A DNA stretch of 64,000 nucleotides from Nocardioides sp. T2.26MG-1 (GTDB lineage: Bacteria; Actinomycetota; Actinomycetes; Propionibacteriales; Nocardioidaceae): the NCBI RefSeq assembly GCF_950101795.1, contig NZ_CATNLZ010000032.1, forward strand, positions 434,001 to 498,000, written 5' to 3'. The notes beneath the pieces are model-generated. The model had not been told where the DNA came from. It saw only the letters and a list, made by a program, of their open reading frames with translations, and made no database searches. The position numbers and the translations under genes were made by a program. Shown here one piece after another: positions 1,111 through 63,762 of this stretch. How positions within the stretch are numbered: position 1 is the first letter of the stretch; the number at the start of each line of letters is the position of its first letter.

Positions 1111-2865
1111 TCAGAGGTACTGGCCGGTGTTGGCGACCGTGTCGATCGAGCGGCCCGGCTCGGTGCCCTGCTTGCCGGTGATGAGCGTGCGGATGAACAC
1201 GATCCGCTCGCCCTTCTTGCCGGAGATGCGGGCCCAGTCGTCGGGGTTGGTGGTGTTGGGCAGGTCCTCGTTCTCCTTGAACTCGTCCACGCACGCCTGC
1301 AGCAGGTGCGAGACCCGCAGGCCGTGCTGGTCGTGGTCGAGGAAGTCCTTGATCGCCATCTTCTTCGCGCGGTCGACGATGTTCTGGATCATCGCGCCGG
1401 AGTTGAAGTCCTTGAAGTACAGGACCTCCTTGTCGCCGTTCGCATAGGTCACCTCGAGGAAGCGGTTCTCCTCGGTCTCGGTGTACATCCGCTCGACGGT
1501 CGCCCGGATCATCCCGGCCACGCAGGCCTCACGGTCGCCGCCGAACTCGGCGAGGTCGTCGGCGTGCAGCGGCAGGCTGGTGAGGAGATACTTGCTGAAG
1601 ATGTCGCGCGCCGACTCGGCGTCGGGACGCTCGATCTTGATCTTCACGTCGAGGCGTCCGGGGCGCAGGATCGCCGGGTCGATCATGTCCTCGCGGTTGG
1701 AGGCGCCGATGACCAGCACGTTCTCGAGGAGCTCGACGCCGTCGATCTCGCTGAGCAGCTGCGGGACGATCGTGTTCTCGACATCCGACGAGACCCCGGA
1801 GCCGCGGGTGCGGAACAGGGAGTCCATCTCGTCGAAGAACACGATGACCGGGGTGCCGCCGCTCGCCTTCTCGCGGGCCCGCTGGAAGACCAGCCGGATG
1901 TGCCGCTCGGTCTCGCCGACGTACTTGTTGAGCAGCTCGGGACCCTTGATGTTGAGGAAGTAGGACTTCCCCTCCTGGCCGGTCTTGGCCGCGACCTTCT
2001 TGGCCAGGGAGTTGGCCACCGCCTTGGCGATCAGCGTCTTGCCGCAGCCCGGCGGCCCGTAGAGCAGGACGCCCTTCGGGGGCTTGAGCTGGTGCTCCTT
2101 GAACAGCTCGGGGTGCAGGTAGGGCAGCTCCACCGCGTCACGGATCTGCTCGATCTGCCCGGCCAGGCCGCCGATCGACTCGTAGGCGATGTCCGGGACC
2201 TCCTCGAGGACGAGCTCCTCGACCTCGGACTTCGGCACCTTCTCGTAGACGTAGCCGGCGCGCGAGTCGAGCAGCAGCGAGTCGCCGGCCCGGATGGTGT
2301 CGCCGCGCAGGGGCTCGGCGAGCCGCACGACGCGCTCCTCGTCCGCGTTGGCGATCACCAGGGCCCGGTCGCCGTCGGCGAGCAGCTCCTTGAACATGAC
2401 GACCTCGCCGACCTCCTCGAAGTCGAGGGCTGCGACGACGTTGAGAGCCTCGTTGAGCATCACCTCCTGACCCCGCTGAAGGGTGTCGAGGTCGACGCTC
2501 GGGCTGACGTTCACGCGCAGCTTGCGGCCGCCGGTGAAGACGTCGATCGAGTCGTCCTCGTTGCGGGCGAGGAAGGTGCCGAAGCCGGCGGGCGGCTGCG
2601 CCAGCCGGTCGACCTCCTCCTTGAGCTTCATGATCTGGTCACGGGCCTCGCGCAGCGTCTGGGCCAGCCGCTCGTTCTGCGACGTCAGGCCCGCGAGCGA
2701 ACGCTGCGCATCCGCCAGACGCAGCTCCAGGCCTCGGGAGCTCCCGGGGCTCTCACTGAGCCGCCGCCGGAGGTCGGAGACCTCGTCCTCCAGGAGCCGG
2801 ACCTGGCTCGCGAGCTCCTCGGGGCTGCGACCACCCGTGCTGGACACGCCTTCTGATGTCGACAT
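1111..2865 (-). CDS. arc: Proteasome-associated AAA ATPase ARC/Mpa
   Basis: 584 residues, the usual length. The hexameric ATPase recognises pupylated proteins through its N-terminal coiled coil and feeds them to the 20S proteasome. The coiled coil spans about residues 15-90, the two OB-type domains 95-235, Walker A (GPPGCGKT) about 270-277 and Walker B ([11 protein letters not shown]) about 340-350. The C-terminus is Gln-Tyr-Leu, the gate-opening tail of this family. An in-frame GTG lies three codons upstream, but it abuts AGGAGG; the ATG at 2865 has that site at 8 nt spacing and is preferred. A TAGGGT -10 box lies at 2889-2894. No dop, pup or prcBA follows it, unlike the common actinobacterial order. 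Confidence 0.95.
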
Positions 2866-2888
2866 CAGCGCCACCTCCTGTGCGCACG

Positions 2889-2894
2889 ACCCTA
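2889..2894 (-). promoter_or_regulatory. -10 box of the ARC gene
   Basis: TAGGGT on the minus strand, about 23 nt before the ATG. A start 7 nt downstream would give a short leader containing AGGAGG. It lies after repeat copy 2, so ARC can be transcribed independently of the methyltransferase gene upstream. Confidence 0.5.
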
Positions 2895-2976
2895 CCCGCG
2901 CGCCGTGAGGAGGAAAGACCTCATTTCGCGGTGTCGATCACGATTTGGACGCGGCTCGGGTGCGGCGCTCGCTGTC

Positions 2977-3031
2977 GTTTGGTCACCAACGACAGATTCT
3001 CGGACGCAATCACTGTCGTTGGTTTACAACA
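2977..3031. repeat. Intergenic inverted-repeat element, copy 2 (degenerate right arm)
   Basis: The left arm GTTTGGTCACCAAC (2977-2990) is intact. The right arm, expected at 3018-3031, reads GTTGGTTTACAACA, so pairing is weakened. The 27-nt spacing is kept, and the inner flanks GACAG and CTGTC are perfect complements. It lies 10 nt downstream of the trmI stop codon. Confidence 0.8.
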
Positions 3032-3041
3032 CGACAAGGAC

Positions 3042-3992
3042 TCAGTCCGCGGGGTCCTCAACGGGGACGTCCGCGGGGCGGGGACCGGTGTAGTCGGGGC
3101 CGTAGGCGCCCGGCGCGGGACGCCGCCGCTTCAGCGGCGGCCTCTCCCCCGGGGCCATCCGCCGGGCGGTGACGAGGAACGCGGTGTGGCCGATCATCTT
3201 GTGGCCGGGGCGTACGGCGAGGCCCTCGACGTGCCAGTCGCGTACCAGCGACTCCCAGGCCTGCGGGTCGGTGAACCCGCCGTGCACGCGGACGGTCTCG
3301 ACGAAGCGGGACAGCTGGGTCGTGGTGGCGACGTAGGCGCACACGATGCCGCCGGGGCGGAGCGCCTCGGCGGTGGCGTCGAGGCACTCCCAGGGCGCGA
3401 GCATGTCCAGGATGACCCGGTCGGCCCTCATGCCGGACGCGGTCAGCTCCTCGGCGAGATCGCCCACCTTCAGCCGCCACGCGGGGTGGCTCTCGCCCTC
3501 GGGCGCGCCGAAGAACTGGTGGACGTTGCGGCGGGCGACGTCCGCGAACTCCTCGCGGCGCTCGTAGGAGGTGACGGTCCCGAACGGTCCGACCGCCCGC
3601 AGCAGCGAGCAGGTCAGCGCCCCGGAGCCGACCCCGGCCTCGACGACGTCCGCGCCGGGGAAGATGTCGGCGAGCGCGACGATCTGGGCGGCGTCCTTGG
3701 GGTAGACCACGGCCGCGCCGCGGGGCATCGACACCACGAACTCCGAGAGCAGCGGCCGGAAGACGAGGTACTCCCCGCCGGCCGACGAGGTGACCGTGAA
3801 GCCCTCCTCCCGGCCGATCAGCTCGTCGTGCTCGAAGTGGCCGCGGTTGGAGAAGAAGCGCTTGCCCGCCTCGAGGCAGATGTTGTGCCGGCGGCCCTTG
3901 CTGTCGGTGAGCCGCACCCACTCGCCGGCCCGTAGGGGGCCGCGGTGGACGCCGGACCAGGCCTCGGGCGGTACGTCGGGATGCTCGGACAC
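3042..3992 (-). CDS. trmI: tRNA (adenine(58)-N1)-methyltransferase
   Basis: 316 residues. It methylates N1 of A58 in the T-loop of tRNA using SAM, as a homotetramer. An N-terminal beta domain (about 1-95) is followed by a Rossmann methyltransferase domain: EAGVGSGALT (about residue 118) is the SAM loop and LDMLAPWE (about 195) the catalytic loop, both typical of TrmI. The C-terminal 40 residues are Pro/Arg-rich. The GTG start lies 7 nt after TAGGGT (4000-4005), which fits a leaderless mRNA. The TAG of that box is also the stop codon of the upstream protease gene. trmI next to ARC is a conserved actinobacterial arrangement. Confidence 0.92.
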   Translation of the reverse strand: MSEHPDVPPEAWSGVHRGPLRAGEWVRLTDSKGRRHNICLEAGKRFFSNRGHFEHDELIGREEGFTVTSSAGGEYLVFRPLLSEFVVSMPRGAAVVYPKDAAQIVALADIFPGADVVEAGVGSGALTCSLLRAVGPFGTVTSYERREEFADVARRNVHQFFGAPEGESHPAWRLKVGDLAEELTASGMRADRVILDMLAPWECLDATAEALRPGGIVCAYVATTTQLSRFVETVRVHGGFTDPQAWESLVRDWHVEGLAVRPGHKMIGHTAFLVTARRMAPGERPPLKRRRPAPGAYGPDYTGPRPADVPVEDPAD

Positions 3993-4002
3993 GGCCGGAA
4001 CC

Positions 4003-5139
4003 CTAGTGGCCCGCGGCGCGGAACGCCTTATCGACGTCGGCGGTGGCGAGCACCCCGACCATGGAGCCGTCGGGCTCGACGAGGAGGTACTCGGCGGCGG
4101 GGGTGCGGCTGATCGCCATCACGAGGTCCTCGCCGACCAGGTCTGCGGGCAGCCGCAACCCCGCCTCGAGCGAGCGGGCGACGGCCGACACGGCGACCCA
4201 GGGCCGCCGGTCGGGTGGCGTCGCCTCGACCGCGGCCTCGCTGACGATGCCTTCGGGAACGCCCCCCGACGTCACCGTGACGATGCTGCCGGCCTGGGCC
4301 TCCTGGGCGCGGCGTACCGCCTCGGCGAGCGGCAGGTCGCTGGGTACGGCGAGGGTGCGGCGCGCGAGCTGGCGGGCGACGAGGTGCGGCAGCCGGGTGC
4401 GCAGCCGGGCCGAGGCCATCGCGGCGGTCGACCCGGACCAGAGGAACGCCGAGATCACGAACGCGAGGATGTAGTCCACGGTGTCCGGCGCGGTGCCGAT
4501 CAGGTCCTCTTGGACGAACGGCCAGAACAGCACGGCCGCGGCGGTCAGGCGGCCCCCCCACCCGGCGACGATCGTGCCGCGGTGCATGTTGCCGGTGACC
4601 CCCCAGACCAGCGACTTGAGCACCCGGCCGCCGTCCAGCGGGAGCCCCGGGACGAGGTTGAGGACGCCGACGAGGAGGTTGGCGCCGGCGAGGCCTTCGA
4701 CCGCCATCAGGAGCAGGCCGTCCGGGGTGACCTCCCTGACGCCGAGGGCGAGCCCGCCGACCAGCAGCGAGGTCAGTGGGCCGACGACGGCGATGAGGAA
4801 CTCCTGCCGCGGGTTGCGTGCCTCCCCCTCGATGGCGGTCATCCCGCCGAGGAAGTGCAGCGTGATCGAGGAGACCTGGAACCCGTAGCGGCGGGCCATG
4901 ATCGCGTGCGACGCCTCGTGAAGCAGGACCGAGAGGTAGAGGATGACCGCGAACGCGAGCCCGGCGACGTACTTCCAGCCACCCAGGCCGGGCTGTGCCT
5001 CCTCGACCGCCGGTGCCACGATCACCGAGATCAGGCCGGCGACCAGGAACCAGGAGGAGGAGACGAGCACGTCGCTGCCGGCGATCGTCCCGACCTTGAG
5101 CGTGCCCGGCGGACGGGGTCGAGGCGGGGAGTCGGGCAC
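4003..5139 (-). CDS. Site-2 protease family (M50) metalloprotease with CBS domains
   Basis: 378 residues, integral membrane. It carries LLHEASHAI (zinc-binding HExxH, about residues 72-80) and NLVPGLPLDGGRV (about 160-172), the two M50 motifs, with about six transmembrane segments. A C-terminal pair of CBS repeats occupies about 250-378. This matches the Rip3/SpoIVFB-like subgroup with CBS domains, which cuts substrates within the membrane; the CBS pair may sense adenine nucleotides (family knowledge). The GTG start is 6 nt after TAGCCT (5146-5151), so it is probably leaderless. It is divergent from the RecB-like gene. Confidence 0.88.
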   Translation of the reverse strand: MPDSPPRPRPPGTLKVGTIAGSDVLVSSSWFLVAGLISVIVAPAVEEAQPGLGGWKYVAGLAFAVILYLSVLLHEASHAIMARRYGFQVSSITLHFLGGMTAIEGEARNPRQEFLIAVVGPLTSLLVGGLALGVREVTPDGLLLMAVEGLAGANLLVGVLNLVPGLPLDGGRVLKSLVWGVTGNMHRGTIVAGWGGRLTAAAVLFWPFVQEDLIGTAPDTVDYILAFVISAFLWSGSTAAMASARLRTRLPHLVARQLARRTLAVPSDLPLAEAVRRAQEAQAGSIVTVTSGGVPEGIVSEAAVEATPPDRRPWVAVSAVARSLEAGLRLPADLVGEDLVMAISRTPAAEYLLVEPDGSMVGVLATADVDKAFRAAGH

Positions 5140-54515: not shown

Positions 54516-55301
54516 ATGAGATGGCTCGGACTCGTCCTCGTCGTGGTCCTGCTGCAGGGAGCGCCCGCGTCGGCGGGCGCGCCCACGGGCCTGGACCGGC
54601 CGGATCGCAAGGAGATCGCGATGCAGCTGGTGTCCAGCGCCGAGAACTCCTCGCTGGAGTGGCGCCGGCAGTTCCGCTACCTCGAGGACATCGGCGACGG
54701 GCGTGGCTACACCGGCGGGATCATCGGCTTCTGCTCGGGCACCGGCGACCTGCTCGAGCTCGTCGATCGCTACACCCATGACCACCCGAGCAACCCGTTG
54801 GCGCGCTTCCTCCCCGCGCTGCGCCGCGTCGACGGCACCGACTCGCACGAGGGGCTCGGCCGCCCGTTCGTCCGGGCCTGGCACCGTGCGGCCCGGGCCG
54901 CCGGGTTTCGGCAGGCCCAGGAGGCGGAGCGCGACCGCGTCTACTTCGACCCGGCGGTGCGGCGTGCCAGGTGGGACGGCCTGCGCACACTGGGGCAGTT
55001 CGTCTACTACGACGCCATCGTCGTGCACGGGCCCGGCGCCGACGCGCTGAGCTTCGGCGGCATCCGCCGCGCGGCCATGCGGCACGCGGACACCCCGGCG
55101 GAGGGTGGGTCGGAGGCCCGCTACCTCGAGGCATTCCTGGCGGCCCGGAAGCGGGTGATGCGCACCGAGGAGGCGCACGAGGACACCTCGCGGATCGACA
55201 CCGCGCAGCGCCGGTTCCTGCGCGAGCGCAACCTCGGTCTCCGGCCGCCGCTGACCTGGCACGTGTACGGCGACCGGTTCCACATCCCGGCTACGGCGTG
55301 A
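54516..55301 (+). CDS. Secreted GH46 chitosanase
   Basis: 261 residues. A signal peptide occupies about 1-20. QLVSSAENSSLEWRRQFRYLEDIGDG matches the GH46 core, with Glu43 as general acid and Asp61 as general base at the same 18-residue spacing as in the Streptomyces N174 enzyme; RGYTGGIIGFCSGTGDLLEL follows. It cleaves chitosan between glucosamine units outside the cell. The ATG is 7 nt after TAGCCT. A DasR-type site lies 1.2 kb away, before the sortase pair. The 3' end overlaps the permease gene by 11 bp. Confidence 0.92.
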   Translation: MRWLGLVLVVVLLQGAPASAGAPTGLDRPDRKEIAMQLVSSAENSSLEWRRQFRYLEDIGDGRGYTGGIIGFCSGTGDLLELVDRYTHDHPSNPLARFLPALRRVDGTDSHEGLGRPFVRAWHRAARAAGFRQAQEAERDRVYFDPAVRRARWDGLRTLGQFVYYDAIVVHGPGADALSFGGIRRAAMRHADTPAEGGSEARYLEAFLAARKRVMRTEEAHEDTSRIDTAQRRFLRERNLGLRPPLTWHVYGDRFHIPATA

Positions 55302-56865
55302 AGTCCTCGGGCGGCAGCTCGGCCTCGAGCTCCACGCCGCCATAGTGCTCGACGCTCGGGTCGCGGTGCAGGCCGCCGCTCATGGCGTACTCCTCCTCCG
55401 GCGACAGCACGAGGTAGTGGCGCCCGAAGATCGCGAAGCCGCCGAGTGCGATGACGTAGAGGACCGCGATGCCGAGGATGGCCGTGCGCGCGTCGTCGTT
55501 GTAGAACAGCCCGACGAACGTGATCGCCGCGATCAGCCCGGCGACGGCAGCGCCGGCGACACCCGCGGGACTGCGGTACGGACGCTCGGCGTTGGGGAAC
55601 TTCCGCCGCAGCAGGACGAACGCCACCATCTGCAGGATGTAGGCCAGCACGGCCCCCCAGACGGCCACGTTGAGGACGATGGCGTTGGCCTTCTCCCCGA
55701 TGGTGTCGGTGTTCTTCGCGAGGTAGTCGACCACCACGAGCACCACGAACCCGAAGGCGGCGCCCGCGACCAGCGCGACGTACGGCGTCTTGCGGGTCCC
55801 GGTGACCGACAGGAACTTCGGGTAGTAGCCGGCCCGTGACAGCGAGTACATGTTGCGCCCGTAGGCGAACATGATCCCCTGCAGGCTCGCGAGCAGGCCG
55901 ATCAGCGCGAAGATCGAGAGCACCGCTGCCCAGTCGTCGGACATGAACGCCCGGAAGCCGTCCAGGAGCGGCTCGTCCGACCCGCCGAGCTCGGACGCGC
56001 CCGTCACCGCCGGGTTCAGGAAGAAGACCAGGGCTGCGCAGCCCACGAGCGTGATCATCCCGATGATCCCGGCCCGCGGGATGTCCTTGGCGGGGTCGTG
56101 CGCCTCCTCGGCCGCGAGCGGCAGTTCCTCGATGCCGAGGAAGAACCACATCGCGAACGGCAGCGCGTAGAGCACGCCCTCCCAGCCGAACGGCATGAAG
56201 GTGCCGTTGCCGCCCTCGGGCGCGATGTTGTCGAGCTGGCCGAAGTCGACCGCGCCGTTCGCGATCGCGAGGACGGCGAACAGGACGAGGATGCCGATGG
56301 AGATGACCGCGACCGCGATCGCGAACTTGAAGGAGATCTCCGCACCCGAGGCGTTCAGCGCCACGAACGCCGTGTAGAGCACCAGCCACCAGAGCCACAT
56401 GTGGTCGCTCAGGTCGAGACCGAAGAGCTCGTCGGTGGCGGCGTTGGCGTATCCGGCCGAGAACAGGACGATCACGCCGGTGGTGAAGACGTACTCGATC
56501 GTCTCGGCGAGACCGGTGATGAAGCCTCCCCACGGACCCATCGACGCACGGGCGAAGGAGTAGGCCCCGCCGGTGTGCGGCATCGCCGCCGACATCTCGC
56601 CGATCGAGAACAGCATCCCGAAGTACATGGCGACGATCGCGACGGTGGCGATCAGCAGGCCGCCCCAGCCGGCCTCTCCGATGCCGAGGTTCCAGCCGGA
56701 GAAGTCGCCGGAGATGACCGCGGCCACCCCGATCCCCCAGAGGCCCCAGAAGCCGGCGGAGCGTTGGAGCTGGCGCTTCTCGAAGTAGCCCTCGCCCGCG
56801 TGGGCGTAGGTGACGCCGCGCAGTCGCGGCGGTGCGCTCTTGGTGCCCTTCACGTCGTCGGTCAC
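55291..56865 (-). CDS. APC-superfamily ethanolamine/amino acid permease (EAT-like)
   Basis: 524 residues with about 12 transmembrane segments. GFWGLWGIGVAAVISGDFSGWNLG (about 38-61) and EMSAAMPHTGGAYSFARASMGPWGGFITGLAETIEYVF match the ethanolamine permease (EAT/EutP-type) branch. AMWFFLGIEELPLAAEEAHDPAKDIPRA is the amphipathic consensus loop. The C-terminal tail of about 45 residues is acidic. GTG behind GAGAGGA. It is divergent from the FCD regulator, whose operator-like palindrome lies between them. I expect uptake of ethanolamine or a similar amine. Confidence 0.85.
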   Translation of the reverse strand: MTDDVKGTKSAPPRLRGVTYAHAGEGYFEKRQLQRSAGFWGLWGIGVAAVISGDFSGWNLGIGEAGWGGLLIATVAIVAMYFGMLFSIGEMSAAMPHTGGAYSFARASMGPWGGFITGLAETIEYVFTTGVIVLFSAGYANAATDELFGLDLSDHMWLWWLVLYTAFVALNASGAEISFKFAIAVAVISIGILVLFAVLAIANGAVDFGQLDNIAPEGGNGTFMPFGWEGVLYALPFAMWFFLGIEELPLAAEEAHDPAKDIPRAGIIGMITLVGCAALVFFLNPAVTGASELGGSDEPLLDGFRAFMSDDWAAVLSIFALIGLLASLQGIMFAYGRNMYSLSRAGYYPKFLSVTGTRKTPYVALVAGAAFGFVVLVVVDYLAKNTDTIGEKANAIVLNVAVWGAVLAYILQMVAFVLLRRKFPNAERPYRSPAGVAGAAVAGLIAAITFVGLFYNDDARTAILGIAVLYVIALGGFAIFGRHYLVLSPEEEYAMSGGLHRDPSVEHYGGVELEAELPPEDFTP

Positions 56866-56966
56866 GGTAGGTCCTCTCGCGAGCTGGTCCGAGGTGGGCT
56901 GATCGTGCGAATGTGAACGGACGCTAGACCCGGCCGGATCCGGGTGTAAATGCTTGCTCGTAAAAT

Positions 56967-56984
56967 TGGTATGAACTCAGACCA
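56967..56984. promoter_or_regulatory. Operator-like palindrome for the FCD regulator
   Basis: TGGTATGAACTCAGACCA is an 18-bp palindrome with one mismatched pair, built on the TGGT...ACCA half-sites typical of FadR/FCD GntR proteins. It lies 41 bp before the regulator GTG, between it and the divergent permease, so it could control both. Confidence 0.55.
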
Positions 56985-57024
56985 TTGATTGACAGGCCCA
57001 TCCCGGCCGTCGAAGGTTGAGCCC

Positions 57025-57759
57025 GTGACCGCCTCCCCTGACGATCGGCTTCCCGAGGCGGTGCTGCGTCCGGTACGTGGTCACCACGCCTTCGAAGCGT
57101 GCGTCGGGCAGCTGGCGACCGCGATCCGGCTGGGCGTCTACCCGCTCGGCACCACGCTGCCGGCGGAGCGCGTGCTGGCCGAGCGCCTGGGCGTGTCGCG
57201 CGCGACCCTGCGCGAGGCGATGGCCGCGCTGCGAGAGGCCGGGCTCGTCGAGACCACGCGCGGCAGAGGCGGCGGGACCGTCGTCACCCTCAAGCCGCGG
57301 CTGCCCAGCGCCCGCAAGGCGGCTCGGCTCGGCCCGGCCCAGCGTCTCGACTGGTTCGACGCCCTGGAGTACCGCCGCATCGTCGAGCCGGGCGCCGCCT
57401 ACCTGGCCGCCCAGACCGACCTGGACGAGGGCAGGCGCGAGCAGCTGGAGACCGCGTTGCGCGAGGTCACCGAGGCGCGCAGGCCGGCCGCCCACCGCCA
57501 GGCCGACTCCCGGTTCCACCTGACGGTCGCGTCATTGGCCGAGTCGCCCCGCGTGATCGAGGCCGTCACCTCGGTGCAGTCCACGCTGCACGAGATGCTG
57601 CTGGCGATCCCGGTCCTCGACACCAACATCGCCCACTCCGACCGCCAGCACGCGGCGCTGGTCAAGGCGATCCTCGCCGGCGACGTCGAGCGCGCGCGCC
57701 GGGTCATGGAAGAGCACTGCGACGACACGGCCGCGCTGCTGCGCGGGCTCGTGGGATAG
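57025..57759 (+). CDS. GntR-family regulator, FCD subfamily
   Basis: 244 residues. The winged helix (about 18-80) has TLPAERVLAERLGVSRATLREAMAALREAGLVETTRGRGGG. The all-helical FCD ligand domain (about 95-235) has ADSRFHLTVASLAESPRV with the metal-binding Asp/His, and IAHSDRQHAALVKAILAGDVERARRVMEEH with the other His ligands. It probably represses the flanking permease and catabolic genes and responds to a pathway acid. GTG start behind GAAGGTTGA. Confidence 0.9.
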   Translation: MTASPDDRLPEAVLRPVRGHHAFEACVGQLATAIRLGVYPLGTTLPAERVLAERLGVSRATLREAMAALREAGLVETTRGRGGGTVVTLKPRLPSARKAARLGPAQRLDWFDALEYRRIVEPGAAYLAAQTDLDEGRREQLETALREVTEARRPAAHRQADSRFHLTVASLAESPRVIEAVTSVQSTLHEMLLAIPVLDTNIAHSDRQHAALVKAILAGDVERARRVMEEHCDDTAALLRGLVG

Positions 57760-57767
57760 GGGACAGC

Positions 57768-59150
57768 ATGGCCCAGGCCGAGCGCGAGCTCCGCAACAGC
57801 CGGCACCTGACGATGCACCAGCTCGTCGACCGCATCGAGAGCGGTGTGATCGACACCGTCGTCGTCGCGATCACCGACATGCAGGGCCGCCTCCAGGGCA
57901 AGCGGCTGCACGGCCGCTACTTCATCGACCACGTCGCCAAGCACGGCACCGAGGGCTGCAACTACCTGCTCGCCGTCGACGTCGACATGAACACCGTCGA
58001 CGGCTACGCCATGTCCTCGTGGGAGAAGGGCTACGGCGACATGGAGTTCCGCCTCGACGAGCGCACGATCCGGGTGCTCACCCACCTGCCGGCCACCGCG
58101 ATGATCCAGTGCGACCTCGAGTGGTCCGACCACTCCCCCGTGACCCAGTCGCCGCGCGGCATCCTGCGCCGCCAGCTCGACAGGTGCGCGGCCCAGGGAT
58201 GGACCGCTCTCGCCGGCACCGAGCTGGAGTTCATCGCGTTCGACACGACGTACGAGCAGGCGCACGCGGACGGCTACCGCGACCTGACGCCCGTCAACCA
58301 GTACAACGTCGACTACTCCATCCTCGGCACCAGCCGGATCGAGCCGCTGCTGCGGGCACTGCGCAACCACATGTACGCCGCGGGTCTCGACGTCGAGGGC
58401 GCGAAGGGCGAGTGCAACTTCGGCCAGCACGAGGTCGGCTTCCTCTACGCCGACGCGCTCACCACCGCCGACAACCACGCGGTCTACAAGACCGCCGCCA
58501 AGGAGATCGCAGCCCAGCAGGGCAAGGCGATCACGTTCATGGCGAAGTACGACCACCGCGAGGGAAGCTCCTGCCACATCCACCTCTCGCTGCGCGGCAC
58601 CGACGGGTCACTGGTCTTCTGGGATGAGGAGACCGGCACCCGCACCCCGCTCTACGACCAGTTCATCGCCGGCGTGCTCGCCACCATCCCCGACTTCACG
58701 CTGCTCTACGCGCCGAACATCAACTCCTACAAGCGCTTCGCGGACGGGTCGTTCGCGCCCACGACGATCGGCTGGGGCCTGGACAACCGCACCTGCGCGG
58801 TCCGGCTCGTGGGCCACGGACCGAGCGCCCGGATGGAGAACCGGCTCCCGGGAGCGGACGTGAACCCCTACCTCGCGCTGGCCGCCATGGTCGCCGGTGG
58901 CCTGCATGGCATCGAGCACGAGCTGCCCCTCGAGGAGGAGCTCGTGGGCAACGCCTACACGTCCGGCCGACCGCACGTGCCACGCACCATGGCCGCCGCC
59001 CGGGACCGGTTCGCGGGCTCCGAGATCGCCCGTGCCGCCCTGGGTGACGACGTCGTGGACCACTACGTCAACATGGCCGACGTGGAGCTCGCGGCGTACG
59101 CCGCTGCCGTGACCGACTGGGAGCTCCGCCGCGGATTCGAGAGGCTGTAA
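57768..59150 (+). CDS. Glutamine-synthetase-like gamma-glutamyl-amine ligase (GlnA4/PuuA-like)
   Basis: 460 residues. GTELEFIAFDTTYEQA holds the metal-binding ExE, YDHREGSSCHIHLSLRG the His/Ser of the ATP and metal site, and NRTCAVRLVGHGPSARMENRLPGADVNPYLALAA the glutamate-binding and catalytic end. True GlnA has a different loop there; the sequence fits the GlnA3/GlnA4 and PuuA branch that ligates glutamate to polyamines or ethanolamine. It follows the regulator by 8 bp and is followed by the aldehyde dehydrogenase without a gap, so they form one operon. Confidence 0.88.
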   Translation: MAQAERELRNSRHLTMHQLVDRIESGVIDTVVVAITDMQGRLQGKRLHGRYFIDHVAKHGTEGCNYLLAVDVDMNTVDGYAMSSWEKGYGDMEFRLDERTIRVLTHLPATAMIQCDLEWSDHSPVTQSPRGILRRQLDRCAAQGWTALAGTELEFIAFDTTYEQAHADGYRDLTPVNQYNVDYSILGTSRIEPLLRALRNHMYAAGLDVEGAKGECNFGQHEVGFLYADALTTADNHAVYKTAAKEIAAQQGKAITFMAKYDHREGSSCHIHLSLRGTDGSLVFWDEETGTRTPLYDQFIAGVLATIPDFTLLYAPNINSYKRFADGSFAPTTIGWGLDNRTCAVRLVGHGPSARMENRLPGADVNPYLALAAMVAGGLHGIEHELPLEEELVGNAYTSGRPHVPRTMAAARDRFAGSEIARAALGDDVVDHYVNMADVELAAYAAAVTDWELRRGFERL

Positions 59151-60521
59151 GTGAGCGCTGAGACCTACACCGTCATCAACCCCGCCACCGCTGCGCCCGT
59201 CACCGACGTGCACCTGGCCTCGGTCGCCGAGACCGACACCGCCATCGAGGGCGCACACGGCGCCTTCCCCGCGTGGAAGGCGATGCCGCCCGGTGAGCGC
59301 GCGACGCTGCTGCGCCGCTTCGCCGCCGTGGTCGACGCCCACGTCGAGGAGCTCGCGGAGCTCGAGGTCCGCAATGCCGGTCACACGTGGGGCAACGCGC
59401 GCTGGGAGGCGGGCAACGTCCGCGACTGCCTGAACTACTACGCCGGGGCGCCCGAGCGGCTCTTCGGCCGGCAGATCCCGGTGCCCGGCGGCGTCGACGT
59501 GACGTTCCGTGAGCCGCTGGGCGTCGTCGGCGTCATCGTGCCCTGGAACTTCCCGATGCCGATCGCCGGCTGGGGGTTCGCCCCGGCCCTGGCCGCCGGG
59601 AACACCGTGGTGCTCAAGCCCGCGGAGCTGACGCCGCTCACCGCGATCCGGCTCGGCGAGCTGGCGCTGGAGGCCGGTCTGTCCGAGCACGTGCTGACCG
59701 TGATCCCCGGCAAGGGCTCGGTCGTCGGCGAGCGGTTCGTGACCCACCCGCTGGTGCGCAAGGTCTGCTTCACCGGGTCGACCGAGGTCGGCAAGCGGAT
59801 CATGGCCGGCTGCGCCGACCAGGTGAAGCGGGTGACGCTCGAGCTGGGTGGCAAGAGCTCCAACATCGTGTTCGCCGACGCCGACATCGATGCCGCGGCC
59901 GCGAGCGCGCCGTACGCCGTCTTCGACAACGCCGGCCAGGACTGCTGCGCGCGGTCCCGGATCCTCGTGGAGCGCTCGGTGTACGACGAGTTCCTCGCCA
60001 AGCTGCAGCCGGCGGTCGAGGGGCTCCGCGTGCTCGACCCCGGCGACGAGTCCAGCGAGATGGGCCCGCTGATCTCCGCGCACCAGCGGGCCACGGTCAC
60101 CGGCTACCTCGACGAGGTCGAGGTGGTGTTCGCGGGCTCGACGCCCGGCGGCTCGGTGTCGGAGGGGTTCTGGGTGCCGCCGTCGGTGGTGACCGTGGAC
60201 GACCCCGCGACCCGGATCTGGCGCGAGGAGGTGTTCGGGCCGGTCGTCGCGGTAATGCCGTTCGACGACGAGGCGGACGCGGTCGCCAAGGCCAACGACA
60301 CCGAGTACGGCCTGTCCGGCTCGATCTTCACCCGCGACCTCGGCCGCGGGCTGCGCGTGGCCCGCGGTGTCGAAGCGGGCAACCTCAGCGTGAACTCGCA
60401 CTCCTCGGTGCGCTACTGGACGCCGTTCGGCGGCTACAAGCAGTCCGGCCTCGGCCGGGAGCTCGGCCCGGACGCCCCGATGGCGTTCACCGAGGAGAAG
60501 AACGTCTTCATCAGTCACTAG
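59151..60521 (+). CDS. NAD(P)-dependent aldehyde dehydrogenase
   Basis: 456 residues. VPWNFPMPIAGWGFAPALAAGN is the cofactor site, TLELGGKSSNIVF holds the general-base Glu231, and NAGQDCCARSRILVE the nucleophile Cys265. It is somewhat shorter than the usual 480-500 residues. In this operon it would oxidise a gamma-glutamyl-amino-aldehyde (PuuC-like role) to the acid. The GTG start is the base after the stop of the ligase gene. Confidence 0.92.
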   Translation: MSAETYTVINPATAAPVTDVHLASVAETDTAIEGAHGAFPAWKAMPPGERATLLRRFAAVVDAHVEELAELEVRNAGHTWGNARWEAGNVRDCLNYYAGAPERLFGRQIPVPGGVDVTFREPLGVVGVIVPWNFPMPIAGWGFAPALAAGNTVVLKPAELTPLTAIRLGELALEAGLSEHVLTVIPGKGSVVGERFVTHPLVRKVCFTGSTEVGKRIMAGCADQVKRVTLELGGKSSNIVFADADIDAAAASAPYAVFDNAGQDCCARSRILVERSVYDEFLAKLQPAVEGLRVLDPGDESSEMGPLISAHQRATVTGYLDEVEVVFAGSTPGGSVSEGFWVPPSVVTVDDPATRIWREEVFGPVVAVMPFDDEADAVAKANDTEYGLSGSIFTRDLGRGLRVARGVEAGNLSVNSHSSVRYWTPFGGYKQSGLGRELGPDAPMAFTEEKNVFISH

Positions 60522-60527
60522 GAGGAT

Positions 60528-60617
60528 GGTGGTTTCGAGGCTCGCTTCGCTCGCACCTCGACCACCGTCACGGTGGTCGAGGTGCGAAGGCCGCCAGGCC
60601 TGAGCCTCGCAACCACC
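60528..60617. repeat. Nested cruciform-type intergenic repeat
   Basis: The outer arms (60528-60543 and 60602-60617) pair with one mismatch. Inside, CGCACCTCGACCACC (60552-60566) pairs perfectly with 60572-60586 around a GTCAC loop. GGCTCGCTTCGCTCGC lies between them. It falls inside the operon, between the aldehyde dehydrogenase and the SDR, and resembles REP-like palindromes common in Nocardioides-type genomes (inference from memory). Confidence 0.85.
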
Positions 60618-60633
60618 CCGACAAGGAGAGAAC

Positions 60634-61413
60634 ATGGCAGGACGCATCCAGGACCGGGTCGCGGTCGTCACCGGCGGCTGCTCGGGCATCGGCCTGGCGA
60701 CCGTCCAGCGGTTCGTCGAGGAGGGCGCGAAGGTCGTCATCGGCGACATCGACGACGCCCGCGGGGCGGAGCTGGTCGCGGAGCTCGGTGGCGCCGAGGT
60801 GGCGACCTACGTCCACGTCGACGTCACGGACAAGGAGCAGGTCGACGCGCTGTTCCAAACCGCGAAGGACACCTACGGCTCCGTGGACATCGCGTTCAAC
60901 AACGCCGGCATCAGCCCGCCCGAGGACGACTCGATCCTCGACACGGACCTGGACGCGTGGCGCCGGGTGCAGGAGGTCAACCTCACCAGCGTGTACCTGT
61001 GCTGCAAGGCCGCACTCCCCCACATGCTCGAGCAGGGCAGGGGCTCGATCATCAACACCGCGTCGTTCGTGGCGGTGATGGGCGCGGCTACCTCGCAGAT
61101 CTCCTACTCCGCCTCCAAGGGCGGCGTGCTCTCGATGACCCGCGAGCTCGGGGTCCAGTTCGCCCGCCAGGGCGTGCGGGTCAACGCGCTGTGTCCGGGG
61201 CCGGTCAACACCCCGCTGCTGCAGGAGCTGTTCGCCAAGGACGAGGAGCGGGCCGCCCGCCGGCTCGTGCACGTGCCGATGGGCCGCTTCGGCGAGCCGG
61301 AGGAGATGGCGGCCGCCGTGCTGTTCCTCGCCTCGGACGACTCGTCGTTCATGACCGCCAGCACCTTCCTGGTCGACGGTGGCATCTCCGGCGCCTACGT
61401 CACCCCGCTGTAG
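60634..61413 (+). CDS. SDR-family oxidoreductase
   Basis: 259 residues, classical short-chain dehydrogenase. VVTGGCSGIGLAT (about 12-24) is the cofactor motif, with Asp38/Asp40-type residues favouring NAD. NNAGISPPED, the SFVAVMGAATSQISYSASKGG block with YxxxK, and the C-terminal MTASTFLVDGGISGAY follow. It is annotated like 3-oxoacyl-ACP reductase, but in this operon it more likely oxidises a hydroxyl group, for example of a gamma-glutamylated amino alcohol. ATG behind AAGGAGAG, after the nested repeat. Confidence 0.9.
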   Translation: MAGRIQDRVAVVTGGCSGIGLATVQRFVEEGAKVVIGDIDDARGAELVAELGGAEVATYVHVDVTDKEQVDALFQTAKDTYGSVDIAFNNAGISPPEDDSILDTDLDAWRRVQEVNLTSVYLCCKAALPHMLEQGRGSIINTASFVAVMGAATSQISYSASKGGVLSMTRELGVQFARQGVRVNALCPGPVNTPLLQELFAKDEERAARRLVHVPMGRFGEPEEMAAAVLFLASDDSSFMTASTFLVDGGISGAYVTPL

Positions 61414-61415
61414 CC

Positions 61416-62132
61416 GTGGTCGCACCCGTCATCGGGCTCACCACCTACCGCGAGGACGCGGCCTGGGGGGTGTGGCAGCAGCGCGCCGACCTGCTGCCGA
61501 CGCAGTACGCCGCCGCGGTCGAGGAGACCGGCGGCGTACCCCTGCTGCTGCCGCCAGTCGGCCGCCCGGGCGCCGCGGACATCGTCGTCGCCCGGCTCGA
61601 CGCGCTGGTGATCAGCGGGGGTGCCGACGTCGACCCGACCCGCTACGGAGCCGACCCGCACCCTCGGACGGCCGGCTGGCGACCCGACCGGGACTCCTGG
61701 GAGCACGCCCTGCTCGACGCCGCGGACGCGTGCGGGTTGCCGGTGCTCGGCGTCTGCCGCGGGATGCAGGTCCTCGCCGTGCACGGCGGCGGCACCCTCC
61801 AGCAGCACGTGCCGGACCTCGTCGGCCACGACGGCCACAGCCCCGGAGGAGACGAGTTCGGGATCGTCGAGGTCGCCACCACCCCCGGGACCCGGGTCTC
61901 CGGCCTCGTCGGGGATCATCTGACCGTGAGCTGCCACCACCACCAGTCGGTGCTCGAGCATCCCGGCCTCGTCGCCGCCGCCCACGCGGGCGACGGGACG
62001 CTGGAGGCGATCGAGTGGCCCGGCGAGCGGTTCGTCGTCGGGGTGCAGTGGCACCCGGAGACCGCGTCCGACGTGGGGCTGCTCGCGGGCCTGGTGCGCG
62101 CCGCGGCGTCGTACGCCGAAGGCCGCGGATGA
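61416..62132 (+). CDS. Class I glutamine-amidotransferase-like gamma-glutamyl hydrolase (PuuD-like)
   Basis: 238 residues. LDALVISGGADVDPTRYG (about 61-78) and VLGVCRGMQVLAVHGGG with nucleophile Cys114, followed by GVQWHPE with His/Glu, form the peptidase C26 triad. PuuD-type enzymes release GABA from gamma-glutamyl-GABA; here the product may be gamma-glutamylglycine or similar. The GTG start lies 2 nt after the SDR stop. Its TGA overlaps the ATG of the next gene. Confidence 0.9.
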   Translation: MVAPVIGLTTYREDAAWGVWQQRADLLPTQYAAAVEETGGVPLLLPPVGRPGAADIVVARLDALVISGGADVDPTRYGADPHPRTAGWRPDRDSWEHALLDAADACGLPVLGVCRGMQVLAVHGGGTLQQHVPDLVGHDGHSPGGDEFGIVEVATTPGTRVSGLVGDHLTVSCHHHQSVLEHPGLVAAAHAGDGTLEAIEWPGERFVVGVQWHPETASDVGLLAGLVRAAASYAEGRG

Positions 62133-62794
62133 CGCTGATCAGCGCGCACCGCTGCCTGACCGCGGCGGAGATCGAGCACGCGATCGCCCTCGGCGCCGAC
62201 TACGTCGAGTTCGACGTGCAGCGCATCGCGGACGGCTCGCTGATGCTCCTCCACGACCTGGTCGACGACCCGCCGCCGGCCACGCTCGGCTACGCCGAGG
62301 CCCTGGACCTGCTCGCCGGCCGGGCGCGCGCCCACCTCGACCTCAAGCTGCGCGGGGGCGAGATCCCGCTCGTCGCGGAGGCGATCGAGCGGCTCGGCAC
62401 CGACCGCCTGCTCGTGACGACCGGCCACGACGACGCGGTGCGGGCGCTGCGCAGGTGGGCGCGCCGCGAGGGCCACGAGCTGCAGGTGGGCCTCTCCCTG
62501 GGCCGTGGTGTGAAGGGCTTCTCGCTGTGGCACGCCCTGCGGGTGCGCACCTCCGAGCTGTTCCCGGGGGTGCGCTACCGGAGCACCGGTGCGAACGTCG
62601 TGGTCGCACACCACTGGCTTGCCCGGCTCCGGGTGCGGCGCTTCGCCGACCAGCACGAGCTGCCGCTGCTGGTGTGGACGGTCGACACCCCGCGCTCGCT
62701 CGCGTACTGGATCCGCCCGGGCCGGGCGTGGCTGGTGACCACCAACCAACCGGAGCTCGCCCTGCGGCTGAGGGCTGACAGACTCGGCACATGA
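62129..62794 (+). CDS. Glycerophosphodiester phosphodiesterase
   Basis: 221 residues, short GDPD TIM barrel. ISAHR with His7, VEFDVQRIADGSLMLLHD with Glu27, Asp29 and His42, and AHLDLKLRGG with the metal Glu/Lys-type positions are visible; LVWTVDTPRSLAYW closes the barrel. It hydrolyses glycerophosphodiesters to glycerol-3-phosphate and the head-group alcohol, which could be ethanolamine here. ATGA overlaps on both sides couple it to the hydrolases. Confidence 0.87.
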   Translation: MTLISAHRCLTAAEIEHAIALGADYVEFDVQRIADGSLMLLHDLVDDPPPATLGYAEALDLLAGRARAHLDLKLRGGEIPLVAEAIERLGTDRLLVTTGHDDAVRALRRWARREGHELQVGLSLGRGVKGFSLWHALRVRTSELFPGVRYRSTGANVVVAHHWLARLRVRRFADQHELPLLVWTVDTPRSLAYWIRPGRAWLVTTNQPELALRLRADRLGT

Positions 62795-63762
62795 CCAGCG
62801 GTGCCTTCGACGAGCTGCTGCCCGACGTGCTCGGCGAGCCGTACCTCGCCGAGACCATCAACCTGCCGCCCGACGAGGAGGGCCCGGTCGTCGCGACGCT
62901 CGTCGTACGCCGTGCGGCACAGCCGACCGGCCGCGCCGTGCTGCACGTGCACGGCTTCGCGGACTACTTCTTCCAGACCCAGTACGCCGAGTGGTGGAAC
63001 GAGCGCGGCTACGACTTCTACGCGATCGACCTGCGCAAGTACGGCCGGTCGATCCGGCCGCACCAGACCCCCACCTACGTCACCGACCTGCGCGACTACT
63101 TCGCCGACCTCGACGCCGCCCGGCACCGGATCGTCGAGCGCGACCGCCACGACCAGCTCGTGATCAGTGCCCACTCCACCGGCGGGCTGATCGTGGCGCT
63201 GTGGGCCGACGCCCGCAGGCCGCCGCTGGCCGGCATGGTGCTGAACTCGCCGTGGCTCGACATGCAGGGCGGCATGATGCTCCGCACCATCGGCACCCAG
63301 ATCGTCATGCGGGTCGGGGCGCGGTCACCGAAGCGGGTCGTGCCGCGCAGGGTCGAGGGCTTCTACGCGCGCAGCCTGCACATCGACCACGAGGGCGAGT
63401 GGGACTTCAACACCGAGTGGAAGCCGCTCGACCCGTGGCCGGTCTACTTCGGGTGGCTGCGGGCGATCCGCATCGGTCACGGCCAGCTCCACCGGGGCCT
63501 CGACGTGGGCTGCCCGGTGCTGGTGCTCTCCTCGGGCGGCACGCACTGGCCCAAGGAGATGGGGCCGGACGTGCACAACTTCGACACGGTCCTCGAGGTG
63601 CCCCAGATCCGGCGCTGGGCGGTCGCGCTCGGCCGCCACGTGACCTACGTGGCCATCGAGGGCGCCCGGCACGACGTCGTCCTGTCGCTCCCCGAGCCGA
63701 GGGAGGCGGCGTACTCCGCCCTCGAGCGCTGGGCGAGGGCCTACCTCACCGACGAGTCCTGA
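62791..63762 (+). CDS. Alpha/beta hydrolase (lysophospholipase/monoglyceride lipase-like)
   Basis: 323 residues. AVLHVHGFADYFFQTQYAEWWNERGYDFYAIDLRKYGRS is the oxyanion and strand region, LVISAHSTGGLIVALWAD the nucleophile elbow with Ser, and EGARHDVVLSLPEPRE the C-terminal His. The shape matches serine aminopeptidase S33/lysophospholipase proteins. In this operon it may deacylate lysophospholipids. The ATG overlaps the preceding TGA. Confidence 0.88.
   Translation: MTSGAFDELLPDVLGEPYLAETINLPPDEEGPVVATLVVRRAAQPTGRAVLHVHGFADYFFQTQYAEWWNERGYDFYAIDLRKYGRSIRPHQTPTYVTDLRDYFADLDAARHRIVERDRHDQLVISAHSTGGLIVALWADARRPPLAGMVLNSPWLDMQGGMMLRTIGTQIVMRVGARSPKRVVPRRVEGFYARSLHIDHEGEWDFNTEWKPLDPWPVYFGWLRAIRIGHGQLHRGLDVGCPVLVLSSGGTHWPKEMGPDVHNFDTVLEVPQIRRWAVALGRHVTYVAIEGARHDVVLSLPEPREAAYSALERWARAYLTDES

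Follow-up and report, generated by a model that had tools for sequence, protein, structure and literature searches.

The locus described here raises the question of what an eight-gene segment of the Nocardioides sp. T2.26MG-1 genome does, and whether its last two genes take part in the same task. The segment (positions 55291 to 63762) lies in a 64,000-nt stretch of contig NZ_CATNLZ010000032.1, referred to below as the window, from an assembly of 5.14 Mb in 37 contigs. A first-pass annotation, made from the letters alone, had proposed a gamma-glutamyl pathway for ethanolamine joined in one operon to the release of ethanolamine from phospholipid by a lysophospholipase-like hydrolase and a glycerophosphodiester phosphodiesterase (GDPD). 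The locus is the Nocardioides copy of the published actinobacterial glnA4 ethanolamine cluster and not a new pathway. Taken as a whole, the data make it likely that this ethanolamine cluster is controlled by its FCD regulator through a palindromic site, with the GDPD and the hydrolase as an optional accessory pair.

Gene content and the probable gamma-glutamyl route

To define the locus, sequence, open reading frames and Pfam matches were checked, and all eight genes were found at the positions given below, with the following features.

55291 to 56865, minus strand: EAT-type APC permease, predicted to take up ethanolamine (TIGR00908, 353.9 bits, below the cut-off of 381.75)
56964 to 56988, no strand: predicted FCD operator, imperfect palindrome AATTGGTATGAACTCAGACCATTGA, a promoter site shared across loci
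57025 to 57759, plus strand: FCD/GntR regulator, corresponding in position and similarity to EpuRI (SCO1614) (PF07729, 65.2 bits; PF00392, 55 bits)
57768 to 59150, plus strand: GlnA4-like putative gamma-glutamylethanolamide synthetase (Gln-synt_C domain PF00120, 312 bits; 13 of 13 GlnA4 residues)
59151 to 60521, plus strand: aldehyde dehydrogenase (ALDH), predicted to convert gamma-glutamyl-aminoacetaldehyde to gamma-glutamylglycine (PF00171, 520 bits)
60551 to 60587, no strand: perfect 18-nt inverted repeat with a 1-nt loop, in the gap between the ALDH and SDR genes
60634 to 61413, plus strand: short-chain dehydrogenase/reductase (SDR), predicted gamma-glutamylethanolamide dehydrogenase (NF004713/PRK06057, 491.6 bits, above the cut-off of 404)
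61416 to 62132, plus strand: C26 gamma-glutamyl hydrolase, predicted to act on gamma-glutamylglycine (PF07722, 183 bits)
62129 to 62794, plus strand: divergent GDPD (PF03009 over residues 11-43; predicted fold)
62791 to 63762, plus strand: alpha/beta hydrolase of predicted monoacylglycerol-lipase-like fold (PF12146, 75 bits; candidate triad)

The gene inventory of the first-pass annotation was thus confirmed in coordinates and families, the core proteins scoring far above their Pfam cut-offs, and so was its description of the codons as mostly overlapping or abutting. The FCD and GlnA genes were separated by 8 bp, GlnA and ALDH by 0 bp, and SDR and C26 by 2 bp; 4-bp ATGA overlaps joined C26 to GDPD and GDPD to the hydrolase, and the only real gap was that of 112 bp between ALDH and SDR.

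In order to examine the core enzymes, the residues that we take to be catalytic were sought and located: Cys265 and Glu231 in the ALDH, Ser144, Tyr158 and Lys162 in the SDR, and Cys114 and His213 in the C26 enzyme. The ligase fell below the cut-off of every glutamine synthetase or gamma-glutamylputrescine synthetase model that it matched; its nearest PDB chain was 5dm3 (423 bits), presumably a Chromohalobacter salexigens protein, as compared with 64 bits for PauA7 (4hpp). All 13 residues given for GlnA4 in PMC6529630, which cover the metal, glutamate and nucleotide sites and the pocket, were present, the first eight at an offset of -4 and the last five at an offset of -2. Since the SDR adjoins the ligase, the substrate would be an amino alcohol.

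PMC6529630 describes a Streptomyces cluster (SCO1611-SCO1615) of SDR, ALDH, glnA4, regulator, transporter and amidotransferase, for which it puts forward a route from ethanolamine through gamma-glutamylethanolamide and gamma-glutamylglycine to glycine and glutamate. The window shares with it the SDR, ALDH, GlnA4, regulator, amidotransferase and, in some species, transporter genes, as well as the GlnA4 residues and the promoter palindrome; it differs in that the regulator and C26 genes run co-directionally with glnA, a divergent EatP-type permease is present, and the GDPD and lipase-like genes stand at the end. A Phaeobacter MED193 operon (PMC10132767), reported there to be related to those of C. 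salexigens and Agrobacterium, likewise has a ligase, two dehydrogenases and an amidohydrolase, but it carries a TRAP transporter and an RpiR regulator, and GDPD and lipase genes are absent from the legend of its operon figure.

This gene set was found to recur widely. Among the 80 named loci, which were the best 80 matches listed in the GlnA scan, GlnA, ALDH, SDR and C26 stood together in 76, and in 71 the FCD regulator as well; an FCD relative was present in 75. A locus without ALDH and SDR (L128) was a 4-kb contig. Most named Streptomyces loci had the order C26<, FCD<, GlnA>, ALDH>, SDR>, and the ten nearest GlnA relatives among the named matches listed were all from Nocardioides (81-92% identity). 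Nocardioides oceani carried two glnA4 clusters (L114 and L134), one of the Nocardioides type and the other arranged as in Tetrasphaera (L132) and equipped with a different permease.

To relate the cluster to the other ethanolamine pathway, 118 genomes of the genus were surveyed, and EutB was found in 21 and GlnA4 in 51. The two occurred together in a single genome (1/21 versus 50/97, Fisher p = 4.8e-5; p = 1.3e-4 when only the 49 GlnA4 matches of at least 70% identity were used), and in the genome of T2.26MG-1 no PF06751 match, and hence no EutB, was obtained; the Fisher values here and below are uncorrected for kinship among genomes. A TIGR00907-type permease, a type assigned from two permease copies, accompanied glnA4 in many loci, and five of the six eutBC loci fetched had it next to EutC; in a midpoint-rooted FastTree tree, printed without support values, the eut-linked copies fell in two places among the glnA4-linked ones. 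The near-exclusion of EutB and GlnA4, together with one permease type that accompanies both pathways, therefore favours ethanolamine as the substrate. The permease of the window belongs to the other type, EatP. Its first-pass label as EAT-type finds support in the match to TIGR00908, whose score falls short of the curated cut-off; in L099 a 71% identical relative (partial gene, 222 aa), for which TIGR00908 was the one match, adjoins glnA4. With the gene set, the 13 conserved residues and the near-exclusion of EutB, there is good support for the proposed gamma-glutamyl route from ethanolamine, which had already been published in Streptomyces, the SDR, ALDH and amidotransferase steps included.

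From the genes observed, their residues, their order in different genomes and the shared promoter site we infer every catalytic step, the regulation, the co-transcription and any role of the last two genes. The permease would import ethanolamine, GlnA4 would couple it to glutamate, the SDR would turn the alcohol of gamma-glutamylethanolamide into an aldehyde, the ALDH would yield gamma-glutamylglycine, and the C26 enzyme would give back glutamate and glycine.

The promoter palindrome

To find a site through which the FCD regulator could act, 8-mers common to the promoters were collected, and a palindrome was derived from them that was longer than the short FCD site TNGT-N(2-5)-ACNA; the latter was rejected, with matches in just 3 of 47 promoters. 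In the window the site AATTGGTATGAACTCAGACCATTGA, which lies between the permease and regulator genes, is the sole match at up to 8 mismatches within 64 kb. A palindrome model was then built from 24 close loci and tested on 68 held-out loci, and its best match fell in the cluster promoter in 56 of them (2.9 expected); these loci come from many genera, Microbacterium, Kribbella and Streptomyces among them. Matches were counted at any score, and as the scores ranged between 45.7 and about -1 the weakest are not evidence singly; in 12 of the 68 loci the best match lay outside the promoter. The FCD regulator would thus act on the divergent promoter of the permease and the operon through this palindrome. 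In the main text of PMC6529630, to which our search was confined, the terms palindrom-, operator and EMSA did not occur.

The GDPD and hydrolase genes at the end of the operon

The GDPD matched PF03009 over residues 11-43 only (43.2 bits, cut-off 23.6), and against the family profile it reached 32.6 bits, the lowest of six, the five other GDPDs of the genome spanning nearly the whole profile with 138-152 bits. It retained H7-R8, E27-x-D29 and H42, which we take to be the functional HR, ExD and H positions of a GDPD and which were invariant in alignments of 10 and 8 sequences. The EN-motif loop and a second loop, after the second His, were missing, and Asp71 occupied a metal-ligand position where Glu is usual. 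The EN-motif loop was likewise missing in the L100 protein; six of the eight proteins in one alignment had it, as did one of the ten in the other. The predicted fold (pLDDT 92.8) was nearest to GDPD 3no3 (Z 23.5, root-mean-square deviation 2.2, 197 residues aligned); the protein thus shares with canonical GDPDs (2pz0, 3no3, GlpQ) the fold, at Z 21.4-23.5, and the HR/ExD/H residues, but has lost both loops and carries Asp71.

The hydrolase, described in the first pass as lysophospholipase-like, gave a weak match to NF008019 (PldB, lysophospholipase L2), and with 30.3 bits against a cut-off of 362 the identification as PldB was rejected. Its model (pLDDT 82.6) was nearest to monoacylglycerol lipases, namely 6eic (Rv0183; Z 28.1, root-mean-square deviation 2.6, 270 residues aligned), whose fold it shares at only 20% identity. 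A candidate triad S129-D265-H294, assigned by inspection, was invariant in 16 sequences. By predicted fold and triad the protein would be a monoacylglycerol-lipase-like alpha/beta hydrolase, a fold that shows no substrate.

We then determined how far this pair follows glnA4 through the genus. The strict GDPD set left out nine of 44 matches, those of 36-39% identity, which were restored in a later count. A strict GDPD ortholog was found in 21 of the 51 GlnA4 genomes, lying 2.9-3.3 kb downstream of GlnA in 15 of those, and its co-occurrence with GlnA4 was weak (21/51 versus 14/67, p = 0.025; with the nine weaker matches 23/51 versus 21/67, p = 0.18). For either ethanolamine pathway the corresponding values were 26/71 versus 9/47 (p = 0.063) and 32/71 versus 12/47 (p = 0.035). 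In 11 of the 14 genomes with GDPD and without GlnA4, the GDPD gene was within 213 bp of the hydrolase gene, and in L103 and L104 the two called genes overlap by 4 bp. A strict coupling of GDPD to glnA4 was ruled out by this gene order and the weak co-occurrence.

The hydrolase had a match in 117 of the 118 genomes at E 1e-40, although in five (G079, G120, G138, G165 and G173) the sole match had an identity of 38-50% and might be a paralog. Its distances were taken for genomes with GlnA4, GDPD or EutB, the better copy being used where there were two. In the GlnA4 genomes where it was not within 8 kb of GlnA4, it stood on another contig in 8, at 24-36 kb in 11 and far away in 2. In seven GlnA4 genomes without strict GDPD it lay 2.9-3.05 kb after GlnA, which is the length of the three other core genes. 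The named Nocardioides loci had the hydrolase in 15 of 21 and GDPD in 9 of 21, and GDPD was also present in L121, a metagenome-assembled genome labelled Actinomycetota only; in the 58 named loci outside Nocardioides, some of them on short contigs, neither gene was found at the glnA4 locus.

At six loci (L087-L092) eutBC stood beside the same lipase-like hydrolase, and in one of these six genomes (G128) GDPD lay there too. In the other EutB genomes the hydrolase was far away in 4 or on a different contig in 11. That two unrelated ethanolamine cassettes adjoin one hydrolase may reflect either a tie in function or a site at which insertion is favoured. A pathway of either kind was present in 71 of the 118 genomes; 46 genomes had a hydrolase match and neither pathway, which suggests an additional function for the hydrolase.

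In a class survey, genus g30 (Mycobacterium-like) had 11 genomes with GlnA4, and in 10 of them a hydrolase match lay on the same contig, about 7-38 kb away. Several kb separated the hydrolase relative from glnA4 in L097-L099, and in L099 that relative adjoins a malate:quinone oxidoreductase gene; the proximity is taken here as regional synteny and not as an operon. The g30 region resembles Rv2851c-Rv2860c. Rv2854 is entered as a probable lipase in PMC8964833.

Sources of ethanolamine and alternative explanations

The claim that the lipase and GDPD free ethanolamine from phosphatidylethanolamine was not established, since the pair also lives without glnA4, a phosphatidylserine decarboxylase match is missing and no shared operator was found. 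The glnA4-type site was sought at 15 hydrolase, GDPD or eutBC stretches without glnA4 (L079-L082, L087-L094, L096, L103 and L104), and the best scores did not exceed 8.5 as against shuffled-window maxima of up to 15.4. The decarboxylase gave no match in the genome of T2.26MG-1 and was found in 10 of the 118 genomes of the genus; recycling of the cell's own phosphatidylethanolamine is therefore doubtful and, as far as the decarboxylase route is concerned, disfavoured. No obvious signal peptide was seen by eye on either protein, and a Pfam search found no glycerophosphodiester transporter among the eight. In the literature, the idea of joining head-group release to glutamylation has appeared before: PMC6529630 already ties ethanolamine released by GDPD from glycerophosphoethanolamine to GlnA4, the review PMC9397018 likewise links this cleavage with ethanolamine use, and growth on phosphatidylethanolamine induces the same kind of gamma-glutamyl operon in Phaeobacter (PMC10132767). 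The genomic juxtaposition of the pair and the cluster, seen here in part of one genus, was found in none of these three papers; a literature search, mostly without full texts and with subscription journals largely outside its reach, turned up no account of a glnA4 operon that includes GDPD or lipase genes.

Judged from these sequences, the GDPD and the lipase-like hydrolase appear to be a separate pair, and their tie to ethanolamine is unproven. They would form a translationally coupled unit that the operon has come to abut in part of the genus, probably co-transcribed with it here, and would serve as an optional accessory in the intracellular turnover of glycerophosphodiesters or of lysolipids and acylglycerols, not as a required step. 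Several observations weigh against the ethanolamine cluster with an accessory pair. The permease scored below the TIGR00908 cut-off, and the Fisher tests take no account of kinship. In 30 of the 51 GlnA4 genomes the hydrolase was no more than 8 kb from GlnA4 (upstream in G137, and as a 38% relative in G165), and in 6 of the 21 EutB genomes it was no more than 2.6 kb from EutB, in more than one orientation, so that the pair may be more than an accessory. GlnA-like ligases can accept several amines, with serinol, alaninol and N-methylethanolamine among the possible substrates. A sarcosine/dimethylglycine-dehydrogenase-like gene was near the cluster in 20 of the 80 named loci and was not found in the searched part of the window; such a DAO/FAO_M/GCV_T neighbour may hint at N-methylated substrates, or else at glycine supply. 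An example is the 807-aa protein encoded at 2080-4503 on the minus strand of L101.

According to one alternative, phosphatidylethanolamine or glycerophosphoethanolamine is cleaved by the hydrolase and GDPD, and the ethanolamine set free is degraded by the same operon. The ATGA overlaps, the position of GDPD downstream of GlnA in 15 of 51 GlnA4 genomes, its retained fold and residues, the neighbourhood of EutB, the association of GDPD with either pathway and the published proposals all lend this idea some weight. Against it stand the pair's existence without glnA4, the weak co-occurrence, the missing decarboxylase, the five canonical GDPDs elsewhere in the genome, and the failure to find an operator, signal peptides or a transporter within the searches above, and we regard it as unlikely. 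A broader notion is that in Nocardioides the hydrolase, paired with the reduced GDPD, salvages ethanolamine-bearing lysolipids or glycerophosphodiesters inside the cell and feeds GlnA4 or EutBC, depending on which of them the lineage has. It would account for the presence of one and the same hydrolase next to two unrelated ethanolamine cassettes, and it too is considered unlikely. Another amino alcohol as the main substrate of the same operon appears improbable: the SDR step needs merely an alcohol on the amine, the dehydrogenase-like neighbour would fit and there are GlnA-like ligases for other amines, but the ethanolamine-type permease, the near-exclusion of EutB, the permease type common to eutBC loci and the conserved GlnA4 residues speak for ethanolamine. 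Polyamine catabolism of the E. coli Puu type is very improbable. Families related to PuuA, PuuC and PuuD were all matched, though below their cut-offs, and the ligase as a polyamine enzyme was rejected at 172 bits against the 650 required by NF045547; no FAD amine oxidase (PuuB) was found among the eight proteins by Pfam search, an SDR being present instead, which together with the low NF045547 score speaks against polyamines, as does the distance from PauA7.

Around the operon, a GH46 chitosanase gene (54516 to 55301, plus strand, 317 bits) shares 11 bp at its 3' end with the permease gene, and on the 3' side of the hydrolase a convergent gene resembles a nitroreductase by inspection. At 60528-60587 the gap between the ALDH and SDR genes holds, besides the inverted repeat, the element GGCTCGCTTCGCTCGC, which occurs once each in L100, L124 and L018 and is perhaps a dispersed repeat.

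With the glnA4 cluster of this window, an ethanolamine route that dispenses with the microcompartment and has been tested in Streptomyces is extended to Nocardioides and to many further actinobacteria, and the palindrome is a specific candidate for the operator of its regulator. Since EutB and GlnA4 all but exclude one another in a single genus, the choice between these two strategies for ethanolamine can be put to the test. Should the last two genes release ethanolamine, the gamma-glutamyl route would have a lipid-salvage step connected to it.

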